The notes beneath the pieces are model-generated. The model was not told the DNA's origin, did not search any database, and saw nothing but the letters and a program-made list of their open reading frames with translations. A stretch of 64,000 nucleotides of DNA from Williamsia maris. GTDB lineage: Bacteria; Actinomycetota; Actinomycetes; Mycobacteriales; Mycobacteriaceae. The translations under genes and the position numbers were made by a program. The stretch is taken from the NCBI RefSeq assembly GCF_024171815.1, contig NZ_JAMTCJ010000001.1, positions 1,357,027-1,421,026 on the forward strand, in the 5' to 3' direction. Shown piece by piece: positions 34,612-53,460 of the stretch (position 1 is its first letter; every line of letters starts with the position of its first letter).

Positions 34612-34685
34612 CGGGGTGTGGCGCAGCTTGGTAGCGTGCTTCGTTCGGGACGAAGAGGTCGTGGGTTCGAATCCCGCCACCCCGA
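34612..34685 (+). tRNA. tRNA-Pro (anticodon CGG)
   Basis: A full cloverleaf: 7-bp acceptor stem CGGGGTG/CACCCCG with discriminator A, D-arm, anticodon stem CTTCG/CGAAG around loop TTCGGGA (anticodon CGG), and a T-arm containing GGTTCGAAT. CCA is not encoded. Confidence 0.97.
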
Positions 34686-34703
34686 CGTGTTGGTTGAGAC
34701 ACA

Positions 34704-34743: not shown

Positions 34744-34824
34744 GTTTCCGGCGTCTTCCGAATTGGGTTCCAGTCCGCACCGCACGGCCGCGATCTCTCT
34801 TGTCCGCTAGCTACTATCGGGCGC

Positions 34825-35308
34825 GTGGGAATTGAGGGTCTGGACGAGCGGCAGCAACTGGCGTTCATTGCCGAAATCGATTCGACCCGAAATCTGTTGG
34901 CGTACGGGCTTCGTGCACTCCGCACCGATGCGCTGATCGACAACATCCAGTATCCGCTACTGACCGTGTTGTCCATCGGCCTCGACAAGCTCAAAAAATC
35001 TCGCACTCGGGCTGACCGCCTTGGACGACCCGCAGCAGCGTGACGCACCGCAGAGGTACTGGATCGCGGTGGAGACAGTGGCATACAACGCGTCCGAGAA
35101 CTTACGGCAACTTCGCGCGAACCGCTTCGATGATTCATCCAGCGCCGCCGCAGACAGGACGCTGCGTCTCGCACTAAGGGACCGCATCGCCACCTCGATC
35201 GAGGTGGCCTGGGACACCGTGGCCCAGTGCGGGAGAATGCGTGCCTTCGGACCCGCAGGAGAGGCCTTCGGCCAGGACGTTCAGCCCGCCGCGGTCGGAC
35301 GACAGTGA
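34825..35308 (+). pseudogene. Small hypothetical gene with an apparent frameshift
   Basis: The frame from GTG 34825 encodes LDERQQLAFIAEIDSTRNLL and LIDNIQYPLLTVLSIGLDKLK, then meets a run of six A (about 34995-35000). After it, good coding sequence continues in another frame: NLALGLTALDDPQQRD, RYWIAVETVAYNASENLRQL, to the stop at 35308. Removing one A joins them into about 160 residues. I do not recognise the family; it is helical and lacks a signal peptide. Position after a tRNA gene fits an acquired gene. Either a sequencing indel or a real lesion. Confidence 0.55.
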
Positions 35309-35354
35309 ACCCTCCGACGCGCGCGTCGAGCCGTCTCAGGTCGTCCACCCCGGG

Positions 35355-36197
35355 TCAGGTCGTGACGCGTTTCGGTTCGGCCGACATCGGTTCCGCGGGT
35401 TCCGCCGGGATCTGTTCGAATACGACGTCGAGGCCCTTGGCTTTCATTTCCTTCGCGAGGTTGAGTTCGTACAGATACTTGAGTTCACGGATCGCGGCGG
35501 GGATGACATAGAACGGCGGTGCGATGAGCCACGGAAGGTTCCAGCCGATGAAGACGATCCAGAAACCGAACCAGCCACCTTGGATGTCTTCCCAGCCGCG
35601 GTACCAGACGTGTGCGATGAAGATCAGGTTCGCAAACGTCATAGCCCAGAGGTAAAGGATCGCGATCCAGTTGCCGGCGATCCGACGCCCGGAGCGCAGC
35701 AGGTAGATGCCGAACAGTCCGATCGGACCACAGGACGCGGCACAGATCTCGATGGCCATGGACGCTGCGTCGTTGGTCAGGTAGCGGGTGTCGGCGCGCC
35801 CATACATCCACCACAACCACAGCCAGTGGTCGTCGGCCGTCGCACCGTGAATGGTGCCGGTGAAGTTCAGCACCACCCAGGAGATCTCCCAGAAGCACTC
35901 GATCGCGACGGACATCCCGAAGAAGAGGAACACCATCTCGGCGCCCCGCTGCAATCGGGTCCGATTCTCGCCGGGATTGTCCAGGAGCGCGATGAACGGC
36001 AGGAATAGCGTCGGCAGGATGACCACCAACGCGATGACGTCGGAGGTCGGCTGCACAGGAATCAGATCGAACCCGATCAGTATCCACGCGAGCACGTTCA
36101 AATTGGCATACATGCCCGCCCACACGAAGATGGCTTTTCGACGTCCGGTCATGGGAAGCGTCAGGTTGTGTTCTGTGAAGGTGTAGCTCACGTGCAT
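35355..36197 (-). CDS. Emopamil-binding-protein (EBP/EXPERA)-like membrane protein, last gene of the mce operon
   Basis: A 280-residue protein with about five to seven membrane helices. The middle resembles eukaryotic sterol delta8-delta7 isomerase EBP: IECFWEISW (Glu100), YGRADTRYL, AIEICAASCGPIGLFGIY (Glu150), and GWNLPWLIAPPFYV (Asn220, Trp223). The histidine that precedes the first glutamate in EBP, as I recall it, is serine here, so isomerase activity is doubtful and a sterol-binding role is possible. It follows the second Mce-associated gene by 48 bases on the same strand. The link to sterol uptake is inference from homology and context. Confidence 0.75.
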   Translation of the reverse strand: MHVSYTFTEHNLTLPMTGRRKAIFVWAGMYANLNVLAWILIGFDLIPVQPTSDVIALVVILPTLFLPFIALLDNPGENRTRLQRGAEMVFLFFGMSVAIECFWEISWVVLNFTGTIHGATADDHWLWLWWMYGRADTRYLTNDAASMAIEICAASCGPIGLFGIYLLRSGRRIAGNWIAILYLWAMTFANLIFIAHVWYRGWEDIQGGWFGFWIVFIGWNLPWLIAPPFYVIPAAIRELKYLYELNLAKEMKAKGLDVVFEQIPAEPAEPMSAEPKRVTT

Positions 36198-36245: not shown

Positions 36246-36938
36246 CTAAAGGGGAGTGAGTTTGTCAACGAGCCAACGACCGTCGACCTGCAGCGCGGTC
36301 ACCTCGACTCGGCTCCCGGTGGTCGCGGGTTTGGGTTCGGTGGCGGTGGTGGTCACCTGGTTGAGGAACAGCAGCATCGTCACGCGATCGCGCTGTCGGC
36401 TCACCACTGAATTACCGACGACGCTGACGCGGGTGACGACTTGCTTTTGCTTGGCGCCCGGGATGATCGTGTTGTTGATCAGATTGGTGTAGTCGGGGCG
36501 GAAGTTGTCGGTCAAACCCTTTTCGGCAGTGGGAAGTTGGTTCTCGGCGTCGGCATAGTCGTAGGAGAGCATCGAGACGACGGTGGTGGCGACTGCCTGT
36601 TGTGCCGCGGCCGAGTTCTGGAGTGCACGCTGGTCTCGGTTGTCGTTTCGCACGATGACGCCGGTGATCGTCGTTGTGACCGCGAGAACGACCAGTACTG
36701 CGGCTGCGGCGATGCGCACCCTGGGGGATCTCCAGCGGCGTCGGCGGTGCACCCCGTCATCGGGGCCATCTGACTCAGCGCCGATGCCGCCATCGTCGCC
36801 GTCGGGTTCCTCTGCGGTGTCGGGCTTCTCGTCGACGGTCGGAGGCGGAGCCACGTCGGGATCAGTGTCTGCGGGTGTCGTCGGGTGCGGGCGGCTGAGC
36901 TCGATGGTGCCCAGGCGGCCTAGACGCAGTGTGCTCAT
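36246..36938 (-). CDS. Mce-associated membrane protein (second)
   Basis: A 230-residue protein: an acidic, Pro-rich cytoplasmic N-terminus (1-65), a membrane helix (about 73-96) and an exported domain with TVVSMLSYDYADAENQLP, LTDNFRPDYTNLI and VTALQVDGRWLVDKLTPL. This is the Mas/Mam protein pattern found after mceF. These proteins stabilise or assist the Mce transporter. Its start overlaps the upstream stop (ATGA). Confidence 0.88.
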   Translation of the reverse strand: MSTLRLGRLGTIELSRPHPTTPADTDPDVAPPPTVDEKPDTAEEPDGDDGGIGAESDGPDDGVHRRRRWRSPRVRIAAAAVLVVLAVTTTITGVIVRNDNRDQRALQNSAAAQQAVATTVVSMLSYDYADAENQLPTAEKGLTDNFRPDYTNLINNTIIPGAKQKQVVTRVSVVGNSVVSRQRDRVTMLLFLNQVTTTATEPKPATTGSRVEVTALQVDGRWLVDKLTPL

Positions 36939-37567
36939 AAGACGAAGTCGACTTTCGACAATGTGGGCGGTGCCCCGTTGGTGACGGTGACGCGGAAGCG
37001 GTAGTCACGGGCTTCGGGTTGCGGTGACCCCTGGTTCTTGATGTCGGCGTGTGCGGCGATGAGCAGCGTGGCGGTCTTGTCGTCGAACCGCTCGACCCCG
37101 ACCGAGACGATGCGGCCGGTGGATGTCACGCCTGCTTCTTTGACGACCTGTGTGTAGGAGGTCGATCGGCCCCCGAAGTCGGCTTTGAAGTCACCGCTCG
37201 AGCGTGCGAGCAGCGTCTTCACGTCTTTGTCGGCCGAGGTGGCGCTGATGGTGGTCAGCGCTGTGATGCCGGCGCGCCCGGCGTCGATGTAGGCGGCGCG
37301 CAGCGAGTCGGTGGCGTCGATCTGCGATCGGTCATGCAGACCGATGCCGAGGAAGACCGATCCGGCTATGGCGGCGCCGACGCACACCAGAGCGGTGGTG
37401 ACCCCGGCGGCGGTTCGCGCCCGCGAGCGGGGGGCGTCCGTGTCGGTGGCCGGCTCGTCGTCGGCGGCGGGCGCCGCGACGGCGGTGGCTCCCGGTTTCG
37501 CTGGTTCGCTTGACGTCTCGGCAACGGGTTGGGTCAGTTCTGTTGTGTCGTCATCAACTGATGCCAT
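36935..37567 (-). CDS. Mce-associated membrane protein (first)
   Basis: A 210-residue protein with an acidic Ala/Pro-rich tail, one membrane helix (about 52-75) and an exported domain containing AGITALTTISATSADKDVKTLL, SGDFKADFGG and a C-terminal strand-rich region. It has the same layout as the next gene and is a Mas/Mam family member. The ATG at 37567 lies 34 bases inside the end of mceF; the long upstream open frame is antisense noise. Confidence 0.87.
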   Translation of the reverse strand: MASVDDDTTELTQPVAETSSEPAKPGATAVAAPAADDEPATDTDAPRSRARTAAGVTTALVCVGAAIAGSVFLGIGLHDRSQIDATDSLRAAYIDAGRAGITALTTISATSADKDVKTLLARSSGDFKADFGGRSTSYTQVVKEAGVTSTGRIVSVGVERFDDKTATLLIAAHADIKNQGSPQPEARDYRFRVTVTNGAPPTLSKVDFVL

Positions 37568-38916
37568 GAGTCGCCTCCGTTCTGATCGGTGGGGGTGAGA
37601 AGTGCGCTGCGATAGACGGATCCGTCGGGTCCGACGTACTTGCCGCTGCTGGGGTCGTAGTCGGCGGGTGCGATCGCCGAGGCCAGTCCCTGCTTGTCGG
37701 GTTGTCCGGATCCGTCGATGCTGGAGGGAAGTGGCCCCTTGGGTTGGTAGCCGTTGGGATCTCGACACAGTTCGGGTGTGGGCGCGCGGCGGCCGGGGAA
37801 CTCCATACACGGAAGGTTTCGCGCGCCGCGGGCGTAGATGGGTGCGTCCTGCGGGATCTTGCAGTACTGGTCCGGCGGGGTGGGGATGACCGACACCTGG
37901 TCCGGTGAGCGCCGTTCGGACGCAGGCATGTAACCGGTTGTGCACGCAGGCGGGGCGCCGATCTGAGACACGAAGTCCGCAGTCGCGGCGCCGTCTTTCG
38001 CACCGCGGTTCAAGGTGGTTTGCAATGCCGCGAGCAGAGGCGGGAGCAACACCAGGATCTGCTCGAGTCCCGGGTTGTAGGTGACACCGACCTGTCCGAC
38101 GCTGATGAGGTTGGCCAGCAGCAGAGGAATCGAGGGACTGATGCCGTCGAGCAGTTGTTGGGCGTTGGCGGTGGTTGCGGGTGTCTGGTCGAGGATGGAG
38201 CGGACGTTGGCGTCGCGGTCTTTGACCACACCCGTGAACGAGGCGAGTTGACGGGCCCATTCCGCGATCGGTGCGCGGTTGTCGGCGAGCGGTTGAACGA
38301 TCGCGGTGAGTTTGCGGATTGTGGTCTCGATGTCACCGGTGTGATCGTTGGCGGTGTCGGCGATGGATCGAATGGAATCGACGAGGGACGCCAGGTCGTC
38401 CTCGGTCCCGACAAGGCTGGTGAAACTGGTGCCGATGAGGCTGCGCAGTTTGCCCTGGGGAATCGATGCGAGCAGGTCGTTGGCCTGGGTGAGCAGGGGG
38501 CCGACCTGGGTGGGGATGGTGACCGAGGTGGCGGGGAGGTTGTCGCCGTCGCGAAGGTAGGGACGGGACGTCGTGGTGGGGACGAGGTCGATGTACTGCT
38601 CTCCGATGGCGGACATGCTGTGTACGTCGACGCGGAGTCCGGCGCGCGGAATCCGGACGTTGTCGTCGACTCGCAATTTCGCAACGACGCCGGAGTCGTC
38701 GAGTCCGATCGTCGTCACGATGCCGACGGTCGCACCACGGTAGGTCACGTTCGCACGTTCGTACACGCCTCCGGCAGAGGGCATGTGGGCCGTCATGGTC
38801 ATCGTGCCGATGCCCACGGTCTGCGGGATCTGAAGGTAGACGACGGCCATCACGGTGATCGAGACAATCGAGATGGTACTGAGGATGCTCAGTTGGATCT
38901 TGATGATGCGCCGCAT
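37534..38916 (-). CDS. mce4F: Mce-family protein, MceF
   Basis: A 460-residue Mce protein with an N-terminal membrane helix, the MlaD/Mce domain (MPSAGGVYERANVTYRGATVG, VDVHSMSAIGEQYIDLVP) and a long helical region, then a Pro-rich tail. It is one of six Mce subunits forming the lipid-conducting tube across the cell wall. A C-terminal Cys-containing segment (ACTTGYMPASERRS, QYCKIP) is typical of MceF. The 4 assignment rests on the KstR box upstream of the operon. Confidence 0.88.
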   Translation of the reverse strand: MRRIIKIQLSILSTISIVSITVMAVVYLQIPQTVGIGTMTMTAHMPSAGGVYERANVTYRGATVGIVTTIGLDDSGVVAKLRVDDNVRIPRAGLRVDVHSMSAIGEQYIDLVPTTTSRPYLRDGDNLPATSVTIPTQVGPLLTQANDLLASIPQGKLRSLIGTSFTSLVGTEDDLASLVDSIRSIADTANDHTGDIETTIRKLTAIVQPLADNRAPIAEWARQLASFTGVVKDRDANVRSILDQTPATTANAQQLLDGISPSIPLLLANLISVGQVGVTYNPGLEQILVLLPPLLAALQTTLNRGAKDGAATADFVSQIGAPPACTTGYMPASERRSPDQVSVIPTPPDQYCKIPQDAPIYARGARNLPCMEFPGRRAPTPELCRDPNGYQPKGPLPSSIDGSGQPDKQGLASAIAPADYDPSSGKYVGPDGSVYRSALLTPTDQNGGDSWHQLMTTQQN

Positions 38917-38917
38917 G

Positions 38918-40069
38918 TCAGCGACCTCTCGGCGGTGCTGTGGCCGTGGGTGCGCCGGTGACGGGGGCGGTAATCGGGTTCGATGTGTCGCCGGCGGTTC
39001 CTGGTGATCGGCCGAGCACCCCGCCGGGGCCGGCGAGGGTGTTGCCCAGCGGGGTGCCGCGCAGCATCCCCTCGCGCAGACGGGGGACGGAGAAGTCGAG
39101 GATCAGGAAGAGGTTTGCGTAGTCGCCTCGAACGACCTGGTCGACCTTGCTCAGCGGGAACGGCAACGTGAACGCCAGATCGAGGGATCTGCTCAGCGAA
39201 TCCCCGGAGTCGGCGAGGCCCTTCAACGCCGGCCTGAGATTGCTCACGTTGGTGCGCAGGTTGTCTCCGCTGGTGTTCACGACCAGGGTGGCCTGCTCGC
39301 TGAACCTGTCGAGCGACCCGAGCACCTTCGACAATTGGATGCGGCGGGCCGACAACACTCCGAGAGCGGGCTGCACGGTGTCGATTGCGTCGGCCAGCTC
39401 GGTGTTCTGCTCGCGGACGGTGGTGGAGAGTCGGTCAAGGCCACGCAAGGCGGTCACGATCGTCTCGCGGCGCTGCGCCAGGGTTCCGGTGACCTTCTCG
39501 AGTTCGGTGAGCAGTCCGCGAGCTCCGTCCGGACGCCCGGCCAGCGCATCGTTGGCGCCATGCACGATCTCCCCGACCCGCGCCAGTCCGCCGTCGTTCA
39601 GAATCACCGACAGCGCGGTCAGTGTCTGTTCGGTGGTCGGGTAGCTCGTCGCCCGCTCCAACGGGATGACCGCACCGGCCGCGAGACGACCTGCCGGAGC
39701 ATCGTCGGTCGGTGGCGCCAACTCGATGTGTTGCGACCCGAGCAGACTGGTCTGCCCGACCGCGGCCACCGCGTTGGCGGGCAGAACCACATCGCGATTG
39801 AGCGAGACGGTGACGCGGGCGTGCCACCCGGACAGGGAAATCGACTTGATCCGTCCGACAGTTACGTCATCGACCATGACCGGCGAATTCTGGGTGATGG
39901 TGCTGACGTCGGGCATCTCGATCGCCACCTCGTAGGCACCCGCCCCTCCACCTTGACCACCGGGCAGAGGTAGCGAGTTCACTCCGTCCCAGCTGCACGA
40001 CGAGAGGGCGAAAGTGGTTGCGACGCCTATGATCAGGACGGTGCCCGACAGACGCCGGCGCCGGCTCAT
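38918..40069 (-). CDS. mce4E: Mce-family lipoprotein, MceE
   Basis: A 383-residue protein with a lipoprotein signal peptide (MSRRRRLSG, hydrophobic core, lipobox LSSC with Cys25), a Gly-rich linker, an Mce domain (VAIEMPDVSTITQNSPVMVDDVTVGRI) and helical coils. A lipid-anchored fifth subunit is the hallmark of mce operons (LprK/LprN type). ATG at 40069 overlaps mceD by 4 bp; one base separates its stop from the mceF start. Confidence 0.9.
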   Translation of the reverse strand: MSRRRRLSGTVLIIGVATTFALSSCSWDGVNSLPLPGGQGGGAGAYEVAIEMPDVSTITQNSPVMVDDVTVGRIKSISLSGWHARVTVSLNRDVVLPANAVAAVGQTSLLGSQHIELAPPTDDAPAGRLAAGAVIPLERATSYPTTEQTLTALSVILNDGGLARVGEIVHGANDALAGRPDGARGLLTELEKVTGTLAQRRETIVTALRGLDRLSTTVREQNTELADAIDTVQPALGVLSARRIQLSKVLGSLDRFSEQATLVVNTSGDNLRTNVSNLRPALKGLADSGDSLSRSLDLAFTLPFPLSKVDQVVRGDYANLFLILDFSVPRLREGMLRGTPLGNTLAGPGGVLGRSPGTAGDTSNPITAPVTGAPTATAPPRGR

Positions 40070-41310
40070 TTCGTCGCCTTGGGTAGCAGCAGCGACGCGA
40101 GCCGGTCGGGCACGCTGACCGAGGGTGGTGCGGTGCCGTCGAGGCCGGGAACGCTGTCGAGAACACCGGGGACGCTGGGGATCTGTTGGCCGGGGTCGGC
40201 GAACGTGGTGCGCAGGGGGTTGATCGCCAGATCCGGGTACGAGGTCTTGAGCATGTTCAGGTACGGGCCGAGGTATTGGGCGCACAGCTGGCCCCCGCGG
40301 GCCGATGTCTGCTTGCCCGCTCCGGCGATTGCGCCGCACACGGTGGCGATGGGGTTTTCCAGGTTCGACACCGACAGAGACCCGACAAGATCGCCCAGTC
40401 CGGGGTGGTACAGGTTGTAGAAGTTGGCGATCTGGGTGGGGGCCTGGTGCAGAACTCCCTCGATCGTCGCGCGTTGGGCGGCGAGGTTGGCCGTGACATC
40501 GGTGGCCGTTCGGACATTGTCGGTGAGGATGCCGGTGTTGTCGGTGACGAAGCGTTGAACGTCGCCGAGCACCGTGTCCAGGGACGTGATTGCCGCGCTG
40601 ACGTCGTCGCGGTTGGATCCCAGGACACTCGCGGTGGTCGCCAGCCGTTGCTGCAGGTCTCCGATCTGTTGACTGCTCGCCGAGAGTGCCGAGGTGAACA
40701 CGGCGAGGTTGCGGACCGTGGCGAAGATGTCGTCACGGCCGTCGGAGAGGACCGACAGGGCGGTGGACAGGGAGGTGATGGTGCCGTTGACCTGCTCGGC
40801 GCGGCCGTTGAGTGCATCAGACGTCGACCCGACGAGCTCAGCGGCGGCGCCGGGATCACCCGGACTCTGGGGGCTCAGCGCCTTGGTCGTGGTGTAGAGC
40901 GCCTTCTTCACGTCGTCCCATTCCATCGGGACGACGGTGTGCGACAACGGGATCACCGCGTTGTCGGTGAGTTGCGGTCCGTCGGTGTATGCGGGTGTCA
41001 GTTGCACGGACCTGCCGGCGACCAGGCTTTGGCTGATGATCGCGGCGTCGACGTCGGCGGGGAGACGTACGCCGTTGTCGACCGAGAGGACGACCTTGAC
41101 GCCACTCGGTCCCGGGGTGATCGAGGAGATCGTGCCGACGGGTACCCCGAGCACGGTGACCGGGTCGCCGGCGTAGACGCCGGTGGTTGAGGTGAACTCG
41201 GCGTCTACGGTGTGGCCGGACGGGTCGTCTGTCGTCCACCACAGCGTGATCCCGGCGACCAGGACCACGACGGTGGTGACGGCAGCGGCGATGATGATCG
41301 ATCGGCGCAT
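40066..41310 (-). CDS. mce4D: Mce-family protein, MceD
   Basis: A 414-residue Mce protein: membrane helix (about 4-26), Mce domain with FTSTTGVYAGDPVTVLGVPVG, long coiled helical region, and a C-terminal part containing FYNLYHPGLGDLVGSL and Pro-rich sequence. Its ATG shares one base with the mceC stop. Confidence 0.9.
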   Translation of the reverse strand: MRRSIIIAAAVTTVVVLVAGITLWWTTDDPSGHTVDAEFTSTTGVYAGDPVTVLGVPVGTISSITPGPSGVKVVLSVDNGVRLPADVDAAIISQSLVAGRSVQLTPAYTDGPQLTDNAVIPLSHTVVPMEWDDVKKALYTTTKALSPQSPGDPGAAAELVGSTSDALNGRAEQVNGTITSLSTALSVLSDGRDDIFATVRNLAVFTSALSASSQQIGDLQQRLATTASVLGSNRDDVSAAITSLDTVLGDVQRFVTDNTGILTDNVRTATDVTANLAAQRATIEGVLHQAPTQIANFYNLYHPGLGDLVGSLSVSNLENPIATVCGAIAGAGKQTSARGGQLCAQYLGPYLNMLKTSYPDLAINPLRTTFADPGQQIPSVPGVLDSVPGLDGTAPPSVSVPDRLASLLLPKATK

Positions 41311-42344
41311 CAGTTGCCTGCTTTCGGGGCCTGCTTGACGAGTTCGTCGACCAGGGGCTGGATGTACTGCACGGGAATGAAGTTGCCGACGTAGGCGAGG
41401 AAGAACGGGCCACTGGAGATGGATTCGCCGAGACCGGTCGAGTAGGTGCGCAAGCCGGTGAGCGCCGAGTTGATGTCGGTCTTCCGCTTCTTGAGTACTG
41501 ACAGGATGCCGTCCAGCTGTGTGAGTGCAGGCGTCAGTTGCGCACGGTTCTCGCGGATCACGCCGGTGAGCTGTTGCGAAACGAACCTGATTCCGACGAT
41601 GAGGCGCTCGAGCTCGCCGCTGCGTGTTTGTAGTTCACCGAGCAGCTTGTTGGCGTCGAGGGTCAGGGTGTTGAGTTGCTTGCTGCGGTCGGCCAGGATC
41701 GCGGTGGTGTCCTGGGTCTTGTCCAATAGTTCGCGAAGCTGGTCGTTGCGTGAGCCGATGGTCCGCGAGAGGCGGGTCACGCCGTCGAGTGCACCGCTCA
41801 GGGCAGGCGCCGATTCCTTGGCGACCTCACTCAATGACCGCAGTGCCGCATTGAGTTGATCGGGGTCGGTGCGGTTGAGCGTTTGGCTGGCGTCGTTGAG
41901 GGCGTCGGGAAGTGAGTAGGGCGGTGTGGTCCGGGTCAGCGGAATCGGTGTGGAGGTGCTCAGGGTCCCGGTGCCCGCGGGGCTGATCCGTAGGGCGCGT
42001 TGTCCCAGGGCCGAGGTGGTGACGATGGCCGCCCGGGTGCCGTCTCCGAGATCGACCGCGGCGTCGATGGTGAAGGCGACGGTGACCTTGTTCCCCGTCA
42101 GACGAATCGATCCGACCTTGCCGACCTGGGAACCCGAGATCTCCACAGGGTCTCCCCCGCGGAGATTGCCGACCTCGGCGAACTCGGCACGGTAGGTGTC
42201 ACCGCCGGTGACCCCGGGGATCTTGTCGTAGAACAGCGCGATGACCACGGCCAGCACGGTGATCGTGATCCCGATGAAAGCGACTCGTGTTCGGGGCATC
42301 TCGCGAAAGCTGGGTAGCTCGCGGAGGCGCTGTCGTCGGTTCAT
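41310..42344 (-). CDS. mce4C: Mce-family protein, MceC
   Basis: A 344-residue Mce protein with a membrane helix near 22-45, FAEVGNLRGGDPVEISGSQVGKV, and a helical region ending in SGPFFLAYVGNFIPVQYIQP, typical of MceC. ATG at 42344 overlaps the mceB stop (ATGA); an in-frame GTG at 42353 is less likely. Confidence 0.9.
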   Translation of the reverse strand: MNRRQRLRELPSFREMPRTRVAFIGITITVLAVVIALFYDKIPGVTGGDTYRAEFAEVGNLRGGDPVEISGSQVGKVGSIRLTGNKVTVAFTIDAAVDLGDGTRAAIVTTSALGQRALRISPAGTGTLSTSTPIPLTRTTPPYSLPDALNDASQTLNRTDPDQLNAALRSLSEVAKESAPALSGALDGVTRLSRTIGSRNDQLRELLDKTQDTTAILADRSKQLNTLTLDANKLLGELQTRSGELERLIVGIRFVSQQLTGVIRENRAQLTPALTQLDGILSVLKKRKTDINSALTGLRTYSTGLGESISSGPFFLAYVGNFIPVQYIQPLVDELVKQAPKAGN

Positions 42345-43375
42345 CGTGCGCACCGGCCGGTGTTCTGGTCGATGAAGGGAATGTCGATGTTCTTGCCCGC
42401 GGGATCCGAGAGCCGCACGATGACCTGGCAGGCGTAGAGCTGGAAGACGCCGCCGTAGGCGCCCATCCGGCTCAGCCGTTTGTAGGCGTCGGGCAGTCGA
42501 CTCAGAACGGTGTCGAGGTTGCCGTCGCCGGTCCCCTTATTGATGGTCGTGGCGGTGCGGTTGAGGTCGGCGATGGTGGGTTGCAGATCCGGTCGCACGC
42601 GCTGAAGGAGATTGCCGGTCACCAGTGTCGCGGACTCGAGGTGGTCGACGATCGGACCGAGCGGGTCGGGTTGGTTGGCGACCTGCGAGACCAGCGACTG
42701 CAATTGATTGATGGTGTCGGTGACCTCGCGACGGCGGTCGACGACGGTCGTCAGCACGGTGGTGAAGTTGTCGACCACCTCTCCGATGACCGCGTCCTGG
42801 TCTGCGATGCGGCCGCTGAGAGCCGCAGTGTTGTCGAGCAGCGCCTTGACGGCTTGTCCCTGCCCTTGAAACGTCGCGACCAATGCGGTCATCAGCGAAT
42901 TGACCTCGGACGGCTGTACCGATTGGAACAGGGGTTTGAAACCGCCGATGAGGGAGTCGATGTCGAGGGCCGGCGTGGTTCGGGTGGCGGGGATGGTCTG
43001 CCCGGCCGGCAACGGCGTCGGCGCCGAGACCGCAGAGTCCTCGGACAGGTCGAGGTAGCGGTCGCCGATCAGGTTTTCGTAGCGGACAGCTGCGCGCGTC
43101 CCCGAATCGAGTGGCCGCGAGTCCGCGGCGTCGAACTCGACGACGACGTCGGCGTTGCGTTGCAGTCGCACTGACGTCACCTTGCCCAGCAGCACTCCGG
43201 CGGCACGCACGTTCTGCCCCGGTTTGAGGCCGGACACGTTGGTGAACACGGCCTTGTAGCTGTGGGTGGATCCGCTGCGGAAGTTGCCGAACACGACGAT
43301 GAGGCCGGCGGAGATCAGGACCATCACGACCGTGTAGCAGGAGACCTTGATCAGGGTGCTTCGTGCGCCGGTCAT
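42341..43375 (-). CDS. mce4B: Mce-family protein, MceB
   Basis: A 344-residue Mce protein: membrane helix (about 10-30), FTNVSGLKPGQNVRAAGVLLGKV, YENLIGDRYLDL, helical coils, and a C-terminal GVFQLYACQVIVRLSDPAGK region with two cysteines. The start overlaps the mceA stop by 4 bp. Confidence 0.9.
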   Translation of the reverse strand: MTGARSTLIKVSCYTVVMVLISAGLIVVFGNFRSGSTHSYKAVFTNVSGLKPGQNVRAAGVLLGKVTSVRLQRNADVVVEFDAADSRPLDSGTRAAVRYENLIGDRYLDLSEDSAVSAPTPLPAGQTIPATRTTPALDIDSLIGGFKPLFQSVQPSEVNSLMTALVATFQGQGQAVKALLDNTAALSGRIADQDAVIGEVVDNFTTVLTTVVDRRREVTDTINQLQSLVSQVANQPDPLGPIVDHLESATLVTGNLLQRVRPDLQPTIADLNRTATTINKGTGDGNLDTVLSRLPDAYKRLSRMGAYGGVFQLYACQVIVRLSDPAGKNIDIPFIDQNTGRCAR

Positions 43376-44553
43376 GGAGTCTGTCCTCGTGGTTGGCCGA
43401 GGAGCGAGGTGAACAGGTCTTCGGGTTTGAACTGCAACGACTTCGGCTCGTTCTTGTACGGGTTCACCCCGGTGTCGGTGACCAGGTACGGGGCGTTCTT
43501 CGTGGGGTCGATCAGCGGCAGCCCGAAGCATCGGGGGCCGCCGGTGGCGTTGACCTTGGGGAGGTTCTGTTGTCCATACAGGCTGCTGCCGGCGACGAAT
43601 CCGACGCTGAGGGTGGCGCCGGGGTGTGTGCCGGCGAACGCCGGGCCGGCGAGCTTGTTCGACTCGTCGAGCCCCGTCACCAGGCATTTCAATTCCGGGG
43701 CGTAGACCCGGAGCAGATCTGTTGTCGGTGAGAGTGTTTCGAGAGTGGTCGCCAAGGCCGAACTGTTGGTCTTCAGCACGTCGGTGCCGGTGTCGGCGAA
43801 GCCAAGGACGTTGGTCAACACCAGATCGATCGTGGATCGCTTGTCAGTGATGGTCTTCGCGGTGGTCGGCAGGTTGGTCAGAACCGACATGATGTCCGGG
43901 GCGGCGTCGGCGAACGCCTCGATCGTCTCCGTACCTGCGGTGATGTCCTGGCGCAGTTGGGGAGTCGCAGAATTGACAGTGCCCACGACCTTCTCCAGCT
44001 CGGTGATCGCCGTGCCCAGGCTGGCACCGCGTCCGTTGCCCAATGCCTGCGACAGGGCGCCGGTGATTGTGTTGAGCTTGTCGGGCTCGATCTGGCGTAG
44101 GACCGAGGTGAGGCGTTCGAACGTCGTGTTCGTCTCCACGGTGACGTCGTCGGTGTTGAGCACGGTGTCAGGGGCGATCGGCCGGCTCTCGGGTACGCGC
44201 GGTTCGTCGAAGTTGATGTACTTCGCCCCGAACACCGTGGAGGAGGTGATGGCGATGGAGGCGTTGGCGGGGATGTGGGCGGCCGCGTCGCTGTCGACGG
44301 CGATGACGATGCGCGCGGTGTCACCGGTCGCGGTGATGGTGCGGACCCGCCCGACGTCTAGGCCGCGGAACTTCACCTTCGCGCCGGGGTCGGTGAGCAG
44401 CCCTGCTCGTGTCGCGACGACGGTGACGGGGATGGTGCTGGTGAACGTGCCGTTGAACGACAACGCGGCGACGGTGACAACGGCCACGATGGCGGTGATC
44501 AGAGCCAGGGCGTAGAGCTTGAGGCGGTACCGGGTCATGTGACGCGCGCTCAT
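43372..44553 (-). CDS. mce4A: Mce-family protein, MceA
   Basis: A 393-residue Mce protein: membrane helix (about 15-35), Mce domain (TRAGLLTDPGAKVKFRGLDVG, TVFGAKYINFDEP) and helical region, with a Cys in APELKCLVTGLDE. ATG at 44553 overlaps the yrbEB stop (ATGA) and is preferred over ATG 44538 for that reason. MceA is the first substrate-contacting subunit gene in all mce operons. Confidence 0.9.
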   Translation of the reverse strand: MSARHMTRYRLKLYALALITAIVAVVTVAALSFNGTFTSTIPVTVVATRAGLLTDPGAKVKFRGLDVGRVRTITATGDTARIVIAVDSDAAAHIPANASIAITSSTVFGAKYINFDEPRVPESRPIAPDTVLNTDDVTVETNTTFERLTSVLRQIEPDKLNTITGALSQALGNGRGASLGTAITELEKVVGTVNSATPQLRQDITAGTETIEAFADAAPDIMSVLTNLPTTAKTITDKRSTIDLVLTNVLGFADTGTDVLKTNSSALATTLETLSPTTDLLRVYAPELKCLVTGLDESNKLAGPAFAGTHPGATLSVGFVAGSSLYGQQNLPKVNATGGPRCFGLPLIDPTKNAPYLVTDTGVNPYKNEPKSLQFKPEDLFTSLLGQPRGQTP

Positions 44554-45401
44554 CCGGAGAGGTGAAAGTTGCCGGTGACGCCGTAGACCGCGAGCGAGAT
44601 CAACAGCGTGACGCTGACGACGACAATGAGTGATGTGCGCACGGCCCGGCCGACAGCGCGGCCGACGCCGTCGGGTCCACCCGAGGCGGTGAAGCCGTAG
44701 AACGTGTGCACGAGCATGACGGCCAAGCCCATCGCGATGGCCTGGAGGAACGACCACAGCAGGTCCACTGGCTGTAGGAATGTCGAGAAGTAGTGGTCGT
44801 AGAGTCCACCGGATTGCCCGTAGATGATGACGGTGGCGAACCTGCAGGCGAAGAACGACGCGATGACCGACATGGAGTAGAGCGGGATGATGACGATGGT
44901 GCCTGCGATGATCCGGGTGCTGATCAGGAACGGGATCGGTCGGATGCCCATGGTTTCGAGTGCGTCGATCTCTTCGCTGATCCGCATGGCGCCGAGTTGC
45001 GCGGTGGCGCCGGCGCCGATGGTGGCGGCGAGGCCGATTCCGGCGATGACGGGAGCGGCGACGCGGACGTTGACAAAGGCTGCGAGGAAGCCGGTGAGTG
45101 ATTCGATGCCGATGTTGCCCAGGGAGCTGTAGCCCTGGATCGCGATCGTGCCACCGGTGAACAGAGTCAGGGTGGACACGATGATGACGGTTCCGCCGAT
45201 GACCGCCAACGCTCCGGTGCCCATGCCGATCTCGGCCATCAGGCGGATCACGTCTTTGCGGTAGAGACGTAGGGCGGTGGGGATCGCGCGGATAGCGAGG
45301 ACGAAGAACTCCATCTCCGCGCCGACGCGGTCGACCGCTGACGATGCACGGCGGAGTTCCCGGCGGGTCCGTGTGAGCTGATCGGATGCTGCGAGCACCA
45401 T
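44550..45401 (-). CDS. yrbE4B: YrbE/MlaE-type permease, second subunit
   Basis: A 283-residue permease with about six membrane helices and the MlaE pattern, including GIGLAATIGAGATAQLGAMRISEEIDALETMGI. In the inner membrane it pairs with the first YrbE and an MceG-type ATPase encoded elsewhere; no mceG is in this window. It starts 6 bases after the stop of the first subunit gene. Confidence 0.93.
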   Translation of the reverse strand: MVLAASDQLTRTRRELRRASSAVDRVGAEMEFFVLAIRAIPTALRLYRKDVIRLMAEIGMGTGALAVIGGTVIIVSTLTLFTGGTIAIQGYSSLGNIGIESLTGFLAAFVNVRVAAPVIAGIGLAATIGAGATAQLGAMRISEEIDALETMGIRPIPFLISTRIIAGTIVIIPLYSMSVIASFFACRFATVIIYGQSGGLYDHYFSTFLQPVDLLWSFLQAIAMGLAVMLVHTFYGFTASGGPDGVGRAVGRAVRTSLIVVVSVTLLISLAVYGVTGNFHLSG

Positions 45402-45407
45402 GTTCCT

Positions 45408-46241
45408 TTATCCCCCTGTGACTTTCACGCCGATGGCGGTGACGATGGTGTTGACGACGAACAGTCCGATGAAGGCGTAGACGACTGTCTCGTTGACGGC
45501 TTCTCCAACGCCTTTGGGTCCGCCGCGGGCGGTGAGTCCGCGGTAGCAGCCGACGAGGCCGGCGAGGATTCCGAACAGGCCGGCTTTGACCACGGCGATG
45601 GCGAGTTCGCCCAGCCCGGTCAGCAGCGTCAGGTTCGCGACGAAAGCGCCGGGGTTCGCGTGTTGGAAGAGCACCGAGAACGCGAACCCACCGACGATCC
45701 CGATGGTGCAGACCAGCCCGTTGAGCAGTACGGCCACGAATCCCGACGCCCATACCCGGGGAACCACGAGGCGCTTGACGGGGTCGACGCCCATCACTTC
45801 GAGGGCGGCGATCTCGTCGTGGATGGTCCGCGATCCGAGATCGGCACAGATTGCGGTGGCTCCGGCGCCGGCCACGATGAGAACCGTTACCAGCGGGCCG
45901 ATCTGGGTGACGGTGCCGAACGCGGCGCTGGCACCGCTGAGGTCCGCCGCGCCGATCTCCTTGAGCAGGATGTTGAGGATGAAGGTCACCAGCACCGTGA
46001 ACGGGATGGCCACGAGCACGGTCGGCAGAGTGGACACCCGTGCGATGAACCACGTCTGATCGATGAACTCGCGGAACTGGATCGGCCGTGCGAGGGAGTA
46101 GCGGAAGGTATCGAGGGTCATGGCGTAGAAGCCGCCCATGCCGTCGACCCCACCGCGGACTCGTCGCCGCGCGTTGCCGGAGATCGCCGCCAAACGCTGC
46201 GTCACGGCGGCGCCGCCGCCGCGCTGTTGGAGGTCGGTCAT
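45408..46241 (-). CDS. yrbE4A: YrbE/MlaE-type permease, first subunit
   Basis: A 277-residue permease with the MlaE motifs AGAGATAICADLGSRTIHDEIAALEVMGVDP and a C-terminal GGPKGVGEAVNETVVYAF. It is the first gene of the mce operon. The perfect KstR box (46296-46309) lies 55 bases upstream of the start at 46241, which supports assignment as mce4 (cholesterol uptake). Confidence 0.93.
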   Translation of the reverse strand: MTDLQQRGGGAAVTQRLAAISGNARRRVRGGVDGMGGFYAMTLDTFRYSLARPIQFREFIDQTWFIARVSTLPTVLVAIPFTVLVTFILNILLKEIGAADLSGASAAFGTVTQIGPLVTVLIVAGAGATAICADLGSRTIHDEIAALEVMGVDPVKRLVVPRVWASGFVAVLLNGLVCTIGIVGGFAFSVLFQHANPGAFVANLTLLTGLGELAIAVVKAGLFGILAGLVGCYRGLTARGGPKGVGEAVNETVVYAFIGLFVVNTIVTAIGVKVTGG

Positions 46242-46295: not shown

Positions 46296-46309
46296 TAGAA
46301 CACGTTACA
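46296..46309. promoter_or_regulatory. KstR box upstream of the mce operon
   Basis: TAGAACACGTTACA fits the published KstR consensus TNNAACNNGTTNNA at every fixed position. KstR represses cholesterol-catabolic genes, including mce4, in mycobacteria and rhodococci. The adjacent AT-rich stretch with ATAATTAT (46321-46328) may belong to the divergent tetR promoter or operator. Confidence 0.75.
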
Positions 46310-46403: not shown

Positions 46404-47036
46404 ATGGAATCGGATAAAGCCGTCCCCACCGGAGGACGCCGGAACGTCAAACGTGGGCAGGAACGCGCGGATCGGACGCGCGATCTCGTGATCGCCGAGA
46501 CCATCTCCTGCATCCGCGAGGAGGGGTTCGCCGCCGCGAGCACCCGGCGAATCATCGAACGGGCAGGCCTGACGTCAGGTGTCATCCAGTATCACTTCGG
46601 TACTCGTGACGGGTTGCTCACCGCGGTGGTCGATTTCGCGTTGGCGCGACTGGTCAGCTCCATCGGCGAGTTGACCACGTCCGTCGAGGGCGTCGACGAC
46701 CCGGATCAGCGGCTGCGGACGTTGGCGCAGACGGCCTGGTCGACGTTCAACAGCCCGGCATCGATGGCGGCGCTGGAGATACTGATCGCGACCCGCTCGA
46801 TACGGGACCGTCTCGATGTCGACAACCTCGAGGTACTCATCCCCGGGCTGGCCCGGATCAGCCAACTGGTCGGCGACTCCACCCACGCCACCGCGATCGG
46901 CAACCTGCTGTGGGCAGCGCCGGTCGGACTGATGGTGGCCGAGCTCGTCGTCCAGTTCCCTCCGCCTACGCAGCCAGAACAACACGCGTTCGCACAGCTG
47001 TTGATCGATCATCGCCACCGGGGACTACCCAGCTGA
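46404..47036 (+). CDS. TetR-family regulator divergent from the mce operon
   Basis: A 210-residue regulator with the TetR helix-turn-helix (FAAASTRRIIERAGLTSGVIQYHFGTRDGLLTAVV). The C-terminal domain is helical with no recognisable ligand motif. It is not an obvious KstR or KstR2 orthologue from its helix-turn-helix alone. The position, divergent from yrbEA, suggests it adds local control of the mce operon. Confidence 0.9.
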   Translation: MESDKAVPTGGRRNVKRGQERADRTRDLVIAETISCIREEGFAAASTRRIIERAGLTSGVIQYHFGTRDGLLTAVVDFALARLVSSIGELTTSVEGVDDPDQRLRTLAQTAWSTFNSPASMAALEILIATRSIRDRLDVDNLEVLIPGLARISQLVGDSTHATAIGNLLWAAPVGLMVAELVVQFPPPTQPEQHAFAQLLIDHRHRGLPS

Positions 47037-49960: not shown

Positions 49961-50674
49961 TCAGTCCTGGCCCAGGTAGGCGCGTTCGAGCGGAGTCATG
50001 TCGGCCGCCAGCGAGGAGGCGTCGGCTTCGAGGACGATCTGTCCGTGCACGAGGACGACGGCTCGATCGGCCACGCTGAGCGCGAGGTGGACGTGTTGCT
50101 CGACGATGACGACGGCTGCCCCAGCGTCGGCCACCGACCGCAGGACCGGCAGGATCGACTCGACGACGATCGGCGCCAGACCCATGCTGAGTTCGTCGAG
50201 CAGAAGCACTTTCGGTGTCTGCACCAGGGCCCGCGCGATGGCAAGCATCTGCTGCTCACCTCCCGACAGGTCGCCCGCGGCGACCTTCATGCGCGACCGC
50301 AGCGCAGGAAAATGATCAATCGCATTGTCGATCAGTTCTTTCGACCGGTGACCTCTCCGCGGTGCCGCCAGCCGCAGGTTCTGCTCTGTGGTCAACCTAC
50401 GGAACAGCGCGCGGTCGTCCGGCACCAGGACGAGGCCTGCCTGTACGGCTGCGCGTGCGTTCCCGGATCGAATCCGATGTCCGCCGACCGAGACGGAGCC
50501 GCCCTTGCGAGGGAGCAGGCCTGCCATGGTCGTCAGGCTGGTCGTCTTCCCGGATCCGTTGGGGCCCATGAGGGCGACGATCTCGCCTTCGGACACGGAC
50601 AGGTCGAGGTCACGAACGCAAGGGCTGCCGGTTCCGTGGCCGGCCGTCATACCCTCGCAATGCAAAGCCGTCAT
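49961..50674 (-). CDS. livF: ABC transporter ATPase, LivF-like
   Basis: A 237-residue LivF-type ATPase: Walker A GPNGSGKTT, signature LSGGEQQML, Walker B VLLLDELSMGLAP and switch EQHVH. It pairs with the LivG domain of the fused protein upstream; the ATG overlaps its stop (ATGA). It powers import in the Liv/Urt class of ABC transporters. Confidence 0.94.
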   Translation of the reverse strand: MTALHCEGMTAGHGTGSPCVRDLDLSVSEGEIVALMGPNGSGKTTSLTTMAGLLPRKGGSVSVGGHRIRSGNARAAVQAGLVLVPDDRALFRRLTTEQNLRLAAPRRGHRSKELIDNAIDHFPALRSRMKVAAGDLSGGEQQMLAIARALVQTPKVLLLDELSMGLAPIVVESILPVLRSVADAGAAVVIVEQHVHLALSVADRAVVLVHGQIVLEADASSLAADMTPLERAYLGQD

Positions 50675-53460
50675 GATGGCGCCCCTTCACCGACAGGTGC
50701 CGCCGACGGCTCAGAAAGCACGGTCGGCGGACCGGTCTCAGACGAGGCGAGGTGCGGTGTGCCGAGGTACGCCGCGATCACGTCCGGGTTCGAACGGACC
50801 TGCGCAGGTGTGCCGGCGGCGATGACGGCACCGAGGTCGAGGACGATGATCCGATCACATATGCCCATGACCAGGTCCATATCGTGATCGACGATCACGA
50901 TGCTGACGTCCGACGACCGGGTCGCCCGCAGACGCTCACCAAGCCAACCGCTCTCGGTACTGTCCAGACCGGCTGCCGGCTCGTCGAGTAGGGCAACACG
51001 CGGACGCCCGACCAACACCCGAGCCACCGATACGAGTTGCCGTTGCCCCTGGGACAGATCGGCCGCATCCGTGTCGGCGAAGGCCTCGATTCCGAGTAGC
51101 CGCATCACTTCATCCACCTGCTCGTCGGTCTCGCCACGTGCGGATCGCGCACCGACGGTGATGTTCTCGGCCACCGAGAGATCCTCGTAGAGTTCGATGT
51201 TCTGGAACGTTCTCCCCAGGCCGGCCCGACTACGACGATGCGGAGCACGTCCACTGACGGCCTCGCCGTCCACCGCGACAACACCTGATGCCGTGACGAA
51301 GCCACCGAGGGCATCGATCAGTGTGGTCTTTCCCGCGCCGTTGGGACCGATGATCCCGACGATTTCTCCCTGGTACACCTCGAAGTTGACATCGTTCACT
51401 GCGGTGACTGCGCCATAGCGAACCGTGATGTTCTGCGCTGACAACACCACGTCGCGCGCCCCCGACTCGACGGCTTGGACGACCGGCACAATCGTCGCTG
51501 ATGCCGCGGGCGCAAGCGGCGTGTGAGGTGTGGCGTGCCTGCGATGCAGAGTGATTCGATGCAGTAGACCCGCGAGCCCATCGGGTTGGGTCACGACGAC
51601 GAAAACCAGCAGCAGCCCGCTGAGCAGTGAATAGTAGTCACCCGAGGACAGGTATCGATCACTGAGCAGATAGACCACGCCGCCCGGAGCCAAGACTCCG
51701 GCTAGAAGCGCCCCGGTCACTGAGGTCACTCCGGCGATGTAGGCCACGGCAAAGATGCCGAGGCCGATGAACACCCCGTAGCTCCCGGCTGTGGCGACGG
51801 TCTGCTGATACGCAAGGAGCGAGCCCCCGAGGCCGGCGATGAACGATGCGATCGCAAAGGCCGCCAGCTTGGTCACTCCCACGTTGATTCCCGACGCTGC
51901 TGCCGAGCGCTCGTTGGCGCGGACGGCAAGCATGGACGCTCCCAACCGGCTGCGCCGTAGGGTGACGACACCGCACGCGCAGGCCAGGAGAAAGATCAGG
52001 CACACGATTCCGAACGCGATGCGTGGATAGCCCTCGCCTGCGCCGATTCCCACGTCGAGACCGAACAGGGAAGGACTGGGGATCGGCGCCCCCTGTAGAC
52101 CGCCGTTCAACGACGGGTTGGTGAACCACACCGCCTCGACGAACACCGCGAGCGCGAGAGTCGCCACCATCAGCGGCAGGCCGCGCACGCGCAGGGCCGG
52201 GAGTCCGATGACGACACCGATGATCATGGCGACGGCAGCCGCGAGGAGCGGTGCGACAGGAAACGGGATTCCGAGCCCGTCACCCAAGCGGCTCAGTGAG
52301 TAGGCGCCGGTGCCCGCCAGCGCGAGTTGCGCGAGCGACACCTGCCCGCCGTAGCCGGTGACCACCACCTGGGAGAGCGCGATGACTGCCGAGATCATCG
52401 TGATGATGACCGCCAGACGCATGCTCCTCGACGTGGCGAAGAGAGCGACCACCGCGACAACGACGCAAGCAATGGTCGGCAGCACCGGCCGACCGGGGCG
52501 GGGCGACTTGCCGAGGTCGTGTTGGATGACCGTCCCGCGGCCGGGCAGGGACCGACCCCGCAGGAGCAGAAACGCCAGGATGAGAACGAGTGGAACAGCC
52601 TCGGCCACGCCGGCATCGGGTAGCCAGCTCACCGAGACCTGGAGATTCGTGGCCTCGGACTGCAGCATGCCGATGGCCAGCCCCGCGCCGACGGTGAGGC
52701 CGATGCCGGAGAAGTTCCCCACCAGTGCGGCCGCGAGAGCAGGGACGATGAACAGGGTGTAGGCCACCGGGTTCAACGGCACGATCGGCGCGATGATGAC
52801 ACCGCCTACGCCGGCAACGGCGGACGACAACGCCCAGTTGACGATCGCGATCCGGTTCGGCGACAACCCTGTCACCACAGCACCTTTTTCAGATTCTGAA
52901 GCGGCTTCCGTCGCCAGCCCGAATCGCGAATAGCGAAGGCCGATTCCGGCGCACACGGCCAGTCCGATGACCACGGCGGCCAGCAGCAGTCGATCGGTCG
53001 GCACTGCGTTTCCGCCGATGGAGATCGTGTCCGTCTTGAACATCGGACCCACTGTGGGGGCGTCCGACCCCACCCGCAGCGCGATGAGCGCCTGCAGGAC
53101 CAGCATCACGCCGATCGCGGCCACCGCCTTCGCCAATGCCGGCGCGGCGCGGAGCGGACCGAACACGACCAGATAGAGCACGACGCCGAGAAGAGCCGAG
53201 ATGGCGACCGAGATCAGCAGCGCAGGGAAGATCGGCATCGGGCCACCGAGATCGATCGTCCCCGGGAGCCCCGGAATCGGATTGAGGAGATCACCCTGGC
53301 GGAGGAAGGCAAAGTTGTAGGCCGCGTACAGCGCAACTGCGCCCGTGGAGAAGTTGATGACCCCTGAGCTCTTGAAGGTCATCACCAGAGCGAGACCAAG
53401 CGCTGCGTATACCGCGCCGTTTCCGAGTCCGAGGACGAGAAACGCGAAATCCTGTGTCAT
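50671..53460 (-). CDS. Fused LivH-LivM-LivG ABC transporter protein
   Basis: A single 929-residue open frame joins three normally separate subunits. Residues 1-310 are a LivH permease (LGLGNGAVYAALGLALVMTF onward, about 8 helices); about 330-625 a LivM permease (GGQVSLAQLALAGTGAYSLSRL, GLPALRVRGLPLMVATLALAVF); about 668-915 a LivG ATPase (Walker A GPNGAGKTT near 703, signature LSQGQRQLVS near 800, Walker B VALLDEPAAGLD). No frameshift or internal stop is seen. The linkers are about 20 and 40 residues. LivF and the binding protein remain separate genes. Confidence 0.92.
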   Translation of the reverse strand: MTQDFAFLVLGLGNGAVYAALGLALVMTFKSSGVINFSTGAVALYAAYNFAFLRQGDLLNPIPGLPGTIDLGGPMPIFPALLISVAISALLGVVLYLVVFGPLRAAPALAKAVAAIGVMLVLQALIALRVGSDAPTVGPMFKTDTISIGGNAVPTDRLLLAAVVIGLAVCAGIGLRYSRFGLATEAASESEKGAVVTGLSPNRIAIVNWALSSAVAGVGGVIIAPIVPLNPVAYTLFIVPALAAALVGNFSGIGLTVGAGLAIGMLQSEATNLQVSVSWLPDAGVAEAVPLVLILAFLLLRGRSLPGRGTVIQHDLGKSPRPGRPVLPTIACVVVAVVALFATSRSMRLAVIITMISAVIALSQVVVTGYGGQVSLAQLALAGTGAYSLSRLGDGLGIPFPVAPLLAAAVAMIIGVVIGLPALRVRGLPLMVATLALAVFVEAVWFTNPSLNGGLQGAPIPSPSLFGLDVGIGAGEGYPRIAFGIVCLIFLLACACGVVTLRRSRLGASMLAVRANERSAAASGINVGVTKLAAFAIASFIAGLGGSLLAYQQTVATAGSYGVFIGLGIFAVAYIAGVTSVTGALLAGVLAPGGVVYLLSDRYLSSGDYYSLLSGLLLVFVVVTQPDGLAGLLHRITLHRRHATPHTPLAPAASATIVPVVQAVESGARDVVLSAQNITVRYGAVTAVNDVNFEVYQGEIVGIIGPNGAGKTTLIDALGGFVTASGVVAVDGEAVSGRAPHRRSRAGLGRTFQNIELYEDLSVAENITVGARSARGETDEQVDEVMRLLGIEAFADTDAADLSQGQRQLVSVARVLVGRPRVALLDEPAAGLDSTESGWLGERLRATRSSDVSIVIVDHDMDLVMGICDRIIVLDLGAVIAAGTPAQVRSNPDVIAAYLGTPHLASSETGPPTVLSEPSAAPVGEGAPS

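Follow-up and report, generated by a model that had tools for sequence, protein, structure and literature searches.

We analysed a window of 64,000 nucleotides from Williamsia maris (contig NZ_JAMTCJ010000001.1), in which a minus-strand gene encodes a predicted membrane protein of the EXPERA/EBP family and closes an operon with the gene order of the mce4 sterol importer, yrbEA-yrbEB-mceA to mceF-mas1-mas2. A first-pass annotation of this DNA had placed an open frame at 35355-36197, and this frame was recovered on the minus strand; it specifies 280 amino acids, although translation could equally well begin at a GTG two codons downstream. The features of the locus are:

34612..34686, plus strand: tRNA-Pro(CGG) gene; five relatives match up to 62-94 bp beyond this gene
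35355..36197, minus strand: EXPERA/EBP-family membrane protein gene (280 amino acids; 278 if GTG at 36191 is the start)
36246..36938, minus strand: mas2, second Mce-associated membrane protein gene (by position; 39-42% identical to the same-place gene in four sister operons)
36935..37567, minus strand: mas1, first Mce-associated gene (55-61% identical to the same-place gene in four sister operons)
37534..38916, minus strand: mceF (TIGR00996, 205.1 bits)
38918..40069, minus strand: mceE, start read at ATG 40069 (56-61% identical to sister-operon mceE; gene order)
40066..41310, minus strand: mceD (TIGR00996, 214.4 bits)
41310..42353, minus strand: mceC (TIGR00996, 201.9 bits)
42341..43375, minus strand: mceB (53-55% identical to sister-operon mceB)
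43372..44538, minus strand: mceA, start read at ATG 44538 (8fed_A, 204.9 bits; Mce4A 7ai2, 89.2 bits)
44550..45401, minus strand: yrbEB permease (MlaE PF02405, 198.6 bits; 8fed_J, E 3.7e-92)
45408..46241, minus strand: yrbEA permease (MlaE PF02405, 191.4 bits)
46296..46309, strand not assigned: predicted KstR operator TAGAACACGTTACA, between yrbEA and the TetR gene; the only match of TNNAACNNGTTNNA in the window
46404..47036, plus strand: TetR-family regulator, divergent from yrbEA (PF00440, 37.7 bits)

The first-pass annotation had assigned the protein to the EBP/EXPERA family (PF05241). As a single sequence it scored 16.3 bits against this Pfam model (E 0.013), below the gathering cut-off of 25.7, and phmmer with the protein found no match in the PDB; homology was instead established by the family profile. 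Profiles of 14 and 49 family rows matched human EBP at E 4.7e-9 and E 1.5e-15, respectively, each time as the sole match among 177,635 PDB sequences, and 30 of the 49 rows matched PF05241 at E 0.1 or better (best 2.9e-6). The predicted fold, moreover, is that of an EXPERA membrane protein. By profile homology and predicted fold, the protein is thus a member of the EXPERA/EBP family, as had been claimed. Its identity to human EBP (3-beta-hydroxysteroid Delta8-Delta7 isomerase; 6OHT, 8W0R) is 17% over the aligned part, and it differs from the human protein in its longer N-terminal part, its bacterial origin and its position next to mce genes. The structural match to the sigma-2 receptor TMEM97 (7M93-7M96, 7MFI) was weaker than that to EBP, at 11-13% identity. 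Alignment A3 contained 34 of the 43 locus rows found and one further locus row (L002:7451-8269); of the nine rows dropped, two duplicated L003 and L054, and the others were L008, L017, L019, L022, L040, L049 and L057. The starts of several alignment rows were trimmed in frame, by hand or by script.

We next compared the residues of the putative active site. All motifs quoted in the first-pass annotation were present (IECFW 99-103, YGRADTRYL 132-140, AIEICAASCGP 148-158 and GWNLPW 218-223). Passages of PMC4263179 report 11 residues that determine EBP activity, identified by alanine scanning, and describe acidic residues as conserved across the EXPERA superfamily at human positions 80 and 108. 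Both acidic positions are kept in the window protein, as E104 and D136 in the 49-row profile alignment. Nine of the ten activity determinants other than His76 are identical when mapped by eye (E104, W129, Y132, D136, R138, Y139, E150, N220 and W223, corresponding in this order to human E80, W101, Y104, D108, R110, Y111, E122, N193 and W196), while Thr125 falls at an indel. Among the 49 rows, position 104 is E in 47 and D in 2, E150 and N220 are kept in all, and position 223 carries W (29 rows), F (19) or Y (1).

The catalytic His76 of human EBP is replaced by Glu100. A change of this histidine to serine, as described earlier, was a misregister: the register pairing E100 with Glu80 and S96 with His76 was rejected, since in the family profile human Glu80 pairs with E104 and not with E100, which leaves Glu100 in the His76 place. 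Q (29 rows), E (15), H (3) or P (2) fills this position; where it is His, the row reads HLTWELGW, near HLVIEGW of the human chain. In the mechanism proposed in passages of PMC6549186, His76 donates a proton, Glu80 acts as acceptor and Trp196 stabilises the cation; His76Ala and Glu80Ala are each reported there to abolish human EBP activity. Because proton donation from this place would still be feasible with Glu but not with Gln, we rate catalysis by the window protein as possible from its sequence. Separately, three actinobacterial loci (L054, L055 and L056) carry His in the His76 place, in the context HLTWELGW, and keep the full His-Glu-Glu set; their sequences make them good candidates for bacterial EBP-type isomerases.

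Within the operon, the EBP-like gene directly follows mas2 on the same strand, as previously annotated, after a gap of 48 bp that contains no predicted promoter, terminator-like site or inverted repeat. On both strands, terminator-like sites numbered 6 compared with 2.0 expected, and there were no promoter-like sites. No Pfam family scored above its cut-off for mas2, and the divergent TetR-family regulator had no KstR model match in NCBIfam.

We then asked how this operon relates to mce4, as the EBP-like gene had been described as the last gene of a cholesterol-type mce operon. Its end position was confirmed, and the KstR motif described below supports the sterol setting, but the operon is sister to mce4 rather than canonical mce4. 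The genome contains eight MlaE-type permease genes in four pairs, and hence four mce operons. One of these (L084, on contig C2) has on its flanks two acyl-CoA dehydrogenase genes and genes for an AMP-binding ligase and a short-chain dehydrogenase/reductase (SDR), the layout of mce4 in M. tuberculosis. The YrbE proteins of the window operon are 67-69% identical to those of L084, and the Mce proteins 37-41%. In a tree of YrbEB, the window operon grouped with operons of four genomes of a genus (g9) that is probably Gordonia (97/100), apart from the mce4-context operon of the window's own genus, and a supergroup (100/99) took in both the window clade and L084; 9 of 21 inner branches of this tree are open, the window clade is starred, and the deeper branching among the mce4-like groups stays uncertain. 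Scores to PDB chains put the window operon with L084, as YrbEB scored 311.7, 323.8 and 268.3 bits to 8fed_J for the window, L084 and L085, respectively, and MceA scored 89.2, 81.5 and 28.4 bits to Mce4A 7ai2 and 204.9, 186.4 and 123.4 bits to 8fed_A; the chains differ in length and mce1 and mce4 are not separated by these scores. Compared to mce4, the window operon thus forms a separate sister clade without the flanking acyl-CoA dehydrogenase and hsd4A-like genes, and it closes with an EBP-family gene. A second EBP-like gene in the mce4-context operon was considered and rejected, as the family profile finds a single copy in the genome, that in the window. The four Gordonia sister operons have no EBP gene in the stretches fetched, which argues against a general link to mce; the MceF search behind them scored at most four candidates per genome, so others may be missed. 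After mas2 in one Gordonia sister operon (L132:5920-6831) lies a gene for a 303-residue protein of a predicted multi-helix membrane family with no Pfam match; of 59 genomes of that genus, 3 encode the family, all of which also possess the sister operon, and the protein's model (predicted local distance difference test score 88.3) had no clear PDB fold match.

The sterol setting of the operon was assessed from its promoter and from the genome. Passages of PMC1995591 define the KstR motif TnnAACnnGTTnnA and place fadE26, fadE27, fadD17 and the mce4 operon in the KstR regulon. The predicted operator lies 54 bp before the yrbEA start, a placement in line with mce4, which has a KstR-type site before yrbEA. 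The window contained 1 match compared with 0.15 expected, and at least one match occurred in 14 of 100 shuffles, so the position of the motif and not its count carries weight; at the density of the reversed pattern, the chance of a match in the 162-bp intergenic region is about 0.0005. Genome-wide, the motif occurred at 44 places and the reversed pattern at 15. The same TAGAACACGTTACA was found in the hsaA/kshA interval of this genome, and TAGAACACGTTATA precedes yrbEA of L084. Furthermore, the genome encodes KstR (NF033703, 335 bits; cut-off 280), KshA (PF19298, 295.7 bits) and KstD, HsaA and HsaC, the last three each above cut-off. Thus, the motif in the promoter and a genome equipped with KstR, KshA, KstD, HsaA and HsaC together argue for a sterol setting of the window operon. 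Before yrbEA, two of the four sister operons, whose genomes are closely related, carry GAGAACACGTTCTA, one mismatch from the KstR motif; of the other two, one carries a different one-mismatch site and one has none. Nine further mce operons showed an exact site in two (L084 and L138), a one-mismatch site in one (L137) and none in six; in simulations, about 5% of such stretches contained by chance a site with no more than one mismatch. A KstR2-type motif was absent from the 59 loci scanned, a set outside which the window fell.

We also examined how the gene is distributed and how it may have arrived. Of 8 genomes of the genus, only its own had it. In its family, 29 of 401 genomes had a match, its own included, with the strongest other match 32% identical and the highest identity 34%. 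Searches of the class and order (16 of 394 genomes with profile A1 at E 1e-5, and 18 of 397 at E 1e-20), whose genome draws overlap with the family draw, gave no further close relative, and a plasmid search gave one weak match, in Planktothrix. Two further homologues, P0002 (76% identical) and P0003 (68%), lie on contigs of at most 1,156 and 7,115 bases. In the 20-kb stretches compared, the matches to the five relatives ended shortly past tRNA-Pro, so the mce region lies in a variable stretch running to the contig end. GC (guanine plus cytosine) content is 59.8% in the EBP-like gene, 64-65% in mceB, mceF, mas2 and yrbEB, and 67.0 and 69.8% in two genes before the tRNA; the lower values fit an acquisition of the region. 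A hypothetical gene beside tRNA-Pro (34823-35310, plus strand) has a frame change near an A-run and looks broken. Elsewhere in the window (50671-53460, minus strand), a 929-residue protein contains two branched-chain permease stretches and an ATP-binding cassette ATPase domain in one chain, apparently LivH, LivM and LivG fused.

For a wider comparison, 46 other EBP-like loci were inspected, made up of 26 named loci plus 20 of the 30 family places other than the gene's own, the latter fetched at about 20 kb; the flanks reach about 10 kb, less at contig ends (L001, L003, L011, L018, L019, L024 and L025), and the two sets share at least one genome (L004 and L144). Two general rules were rejected on this set: EBP-like genes are not generally tied to mce genes, and they are not generally part of the KstR regulon, as the motif occurred in 8 of the 46 loci, the nearest 708 bp upstream of the EBP gene. 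The mycobacterial "Emopamil-binding protein" homologues belong to the same family, five organism-named Mycobacterium and Mycolicibacterium entries being 27-34% identical over 73-93% of the query, but they lack nearby mce genes and a KstR motif within 700 bp, and mostly have Gln at the His76 place. Their genes lie among P450, Rieske oxygenase, aldehyde dehydrogenase and AveC-like genes. A recurring arrangement (L005, L007, L009, L013, L014, L015 and L017) has, around the mycobacterial EBP-like gene, both a MoxR/VWA pair and an AveC-like (PF17198) cluster; Pfam checks covered two or three members in each locus. A kinship of the mycobacterial AveC-like neighbours with EBP, considered for a shared D-x-G-RT stretch, gained no support from profile comparison. 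In Mycobacterium sp. UM_CSW, three EBP-like paralogues lie within 9 kb (L002:7451-16123), and passages of PMC4818103 describe three EBP homologues in a genomic island of this strain. The open-licence PMC literature, which leaves out most subscription papers, contained nothing joining mce4 and emopamil and nothing joining the emopamil-binding protein, bacteria and EXPERA; among the papers listed, titles and abstract openings yielded no study of a bacterial EXPERA protein.

The EBP-family protein likely binds or isomerises the imported sterol. The reading we favour, tentatively and at somewhat less than an even chance, is a membrane sterol isomerase acting on what the mce4-sister importer brings in. 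The EXPERA-fold protein, encoded at the end of a lipid-import operon with a predicted KstR site in its promoter, would be co-transcribed with the importer under KstR control, and the cargo would be a sterol-type lipid; a proton relay of Glu100, Glu104 and Glu150 would shift a ring double bond (that it does so, and in which direction, is our inference). Sterols whose ring double bonds are unusual, such as Delta7 or Delta8, might in this way be brought into a form degradable by the KstR-controlled pathway. Several observations weigh against this isomerase. Linkage to mce was found in one genome only, the searches of genus, family, class and order having given no other close relative; mce genes were absent near 26 of 26 named and 20 of 20 fetched family loci, and in these 46 loci no KstR motif lay within 700 bp of the EBP-like gene. 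Same-strand terminator-like sites lie at the mas1/mas2 junction (36959-36947) and inside the EBP-like gene (35947-35927). In addition, His76 is replaced, and passages of PMC6549186 give its exchange for Ala as abolishing human EBP activity; Gln, with no proton donation, holds this place in 29 of 49 rows, so the wider family may not perform the EBP reaction. Position 197, Glu in 45 of 49 rows and aligned to a human EBP Glu, is Val in the window protein, with a His one place before it.

By analogy with TMEM97, the protein may instead be a non-catalytic binding partner, which would hold the sterol-type lipid leaving the Mce permease and hand it to downstream enzymes or stabilise the importer; this role, with roughly a one-third share of our confidence, ranks close behind the isomerase. 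We consider it fairly unlikely that the gene serves another polycyclic substrate (a terpenoid or modified sterol), having come in with the region and sharing the promoter without serving sterols of the KstR pathway. The end of the relatives' matches 62-94 bp after tRNA-Pro, the presence in 1 of 8 genus genomes, the acyl-CoA ligase, SDR and LIV-type transporter also found in the region, and the P450, Rieske oxygenase, aldehyde dehydrogenase and AveC-like neighbours of mycobacterial relatives would all suit such a substrate; however, the KstR motif in the operon promoter points to sterols, as does the one-mismatch site that two closely related sister operons of Gordonia carry. A merely accidental neighbourhood, with the gene having its own transcript and no relation to mce, would account for the four Gordonia sister operons lacking the gene in the stretches fetched and for mce genes near 0 of 46 other loci, but the shared strand and the 48-bp gap without predicted promoter or terminator make it very improbable.

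In its most specific form, the isomerase reading describes a sterol importer with its own membrane isomerase: the sterol would be caught in the inner membrane and its double bond moved before degradation by the KstR pathway, with Glu-Glu-Glu replacing the His-Glu-Glu relay of human EBP. We regard this full version as doubtful. To our knowledge, little has been described of how actinobacteria start on Delta7 or Delta8 sterols, or of what a sterol meets on leaving a Mce importer; with the EBP-fold protein encoded in this KstR-boxed mce operon, a single gene makes both questions testable. The protein would also give the human fold of EBP and sigma-2, which binds drugs, a bacterial member whose setting is likely sterol-related.
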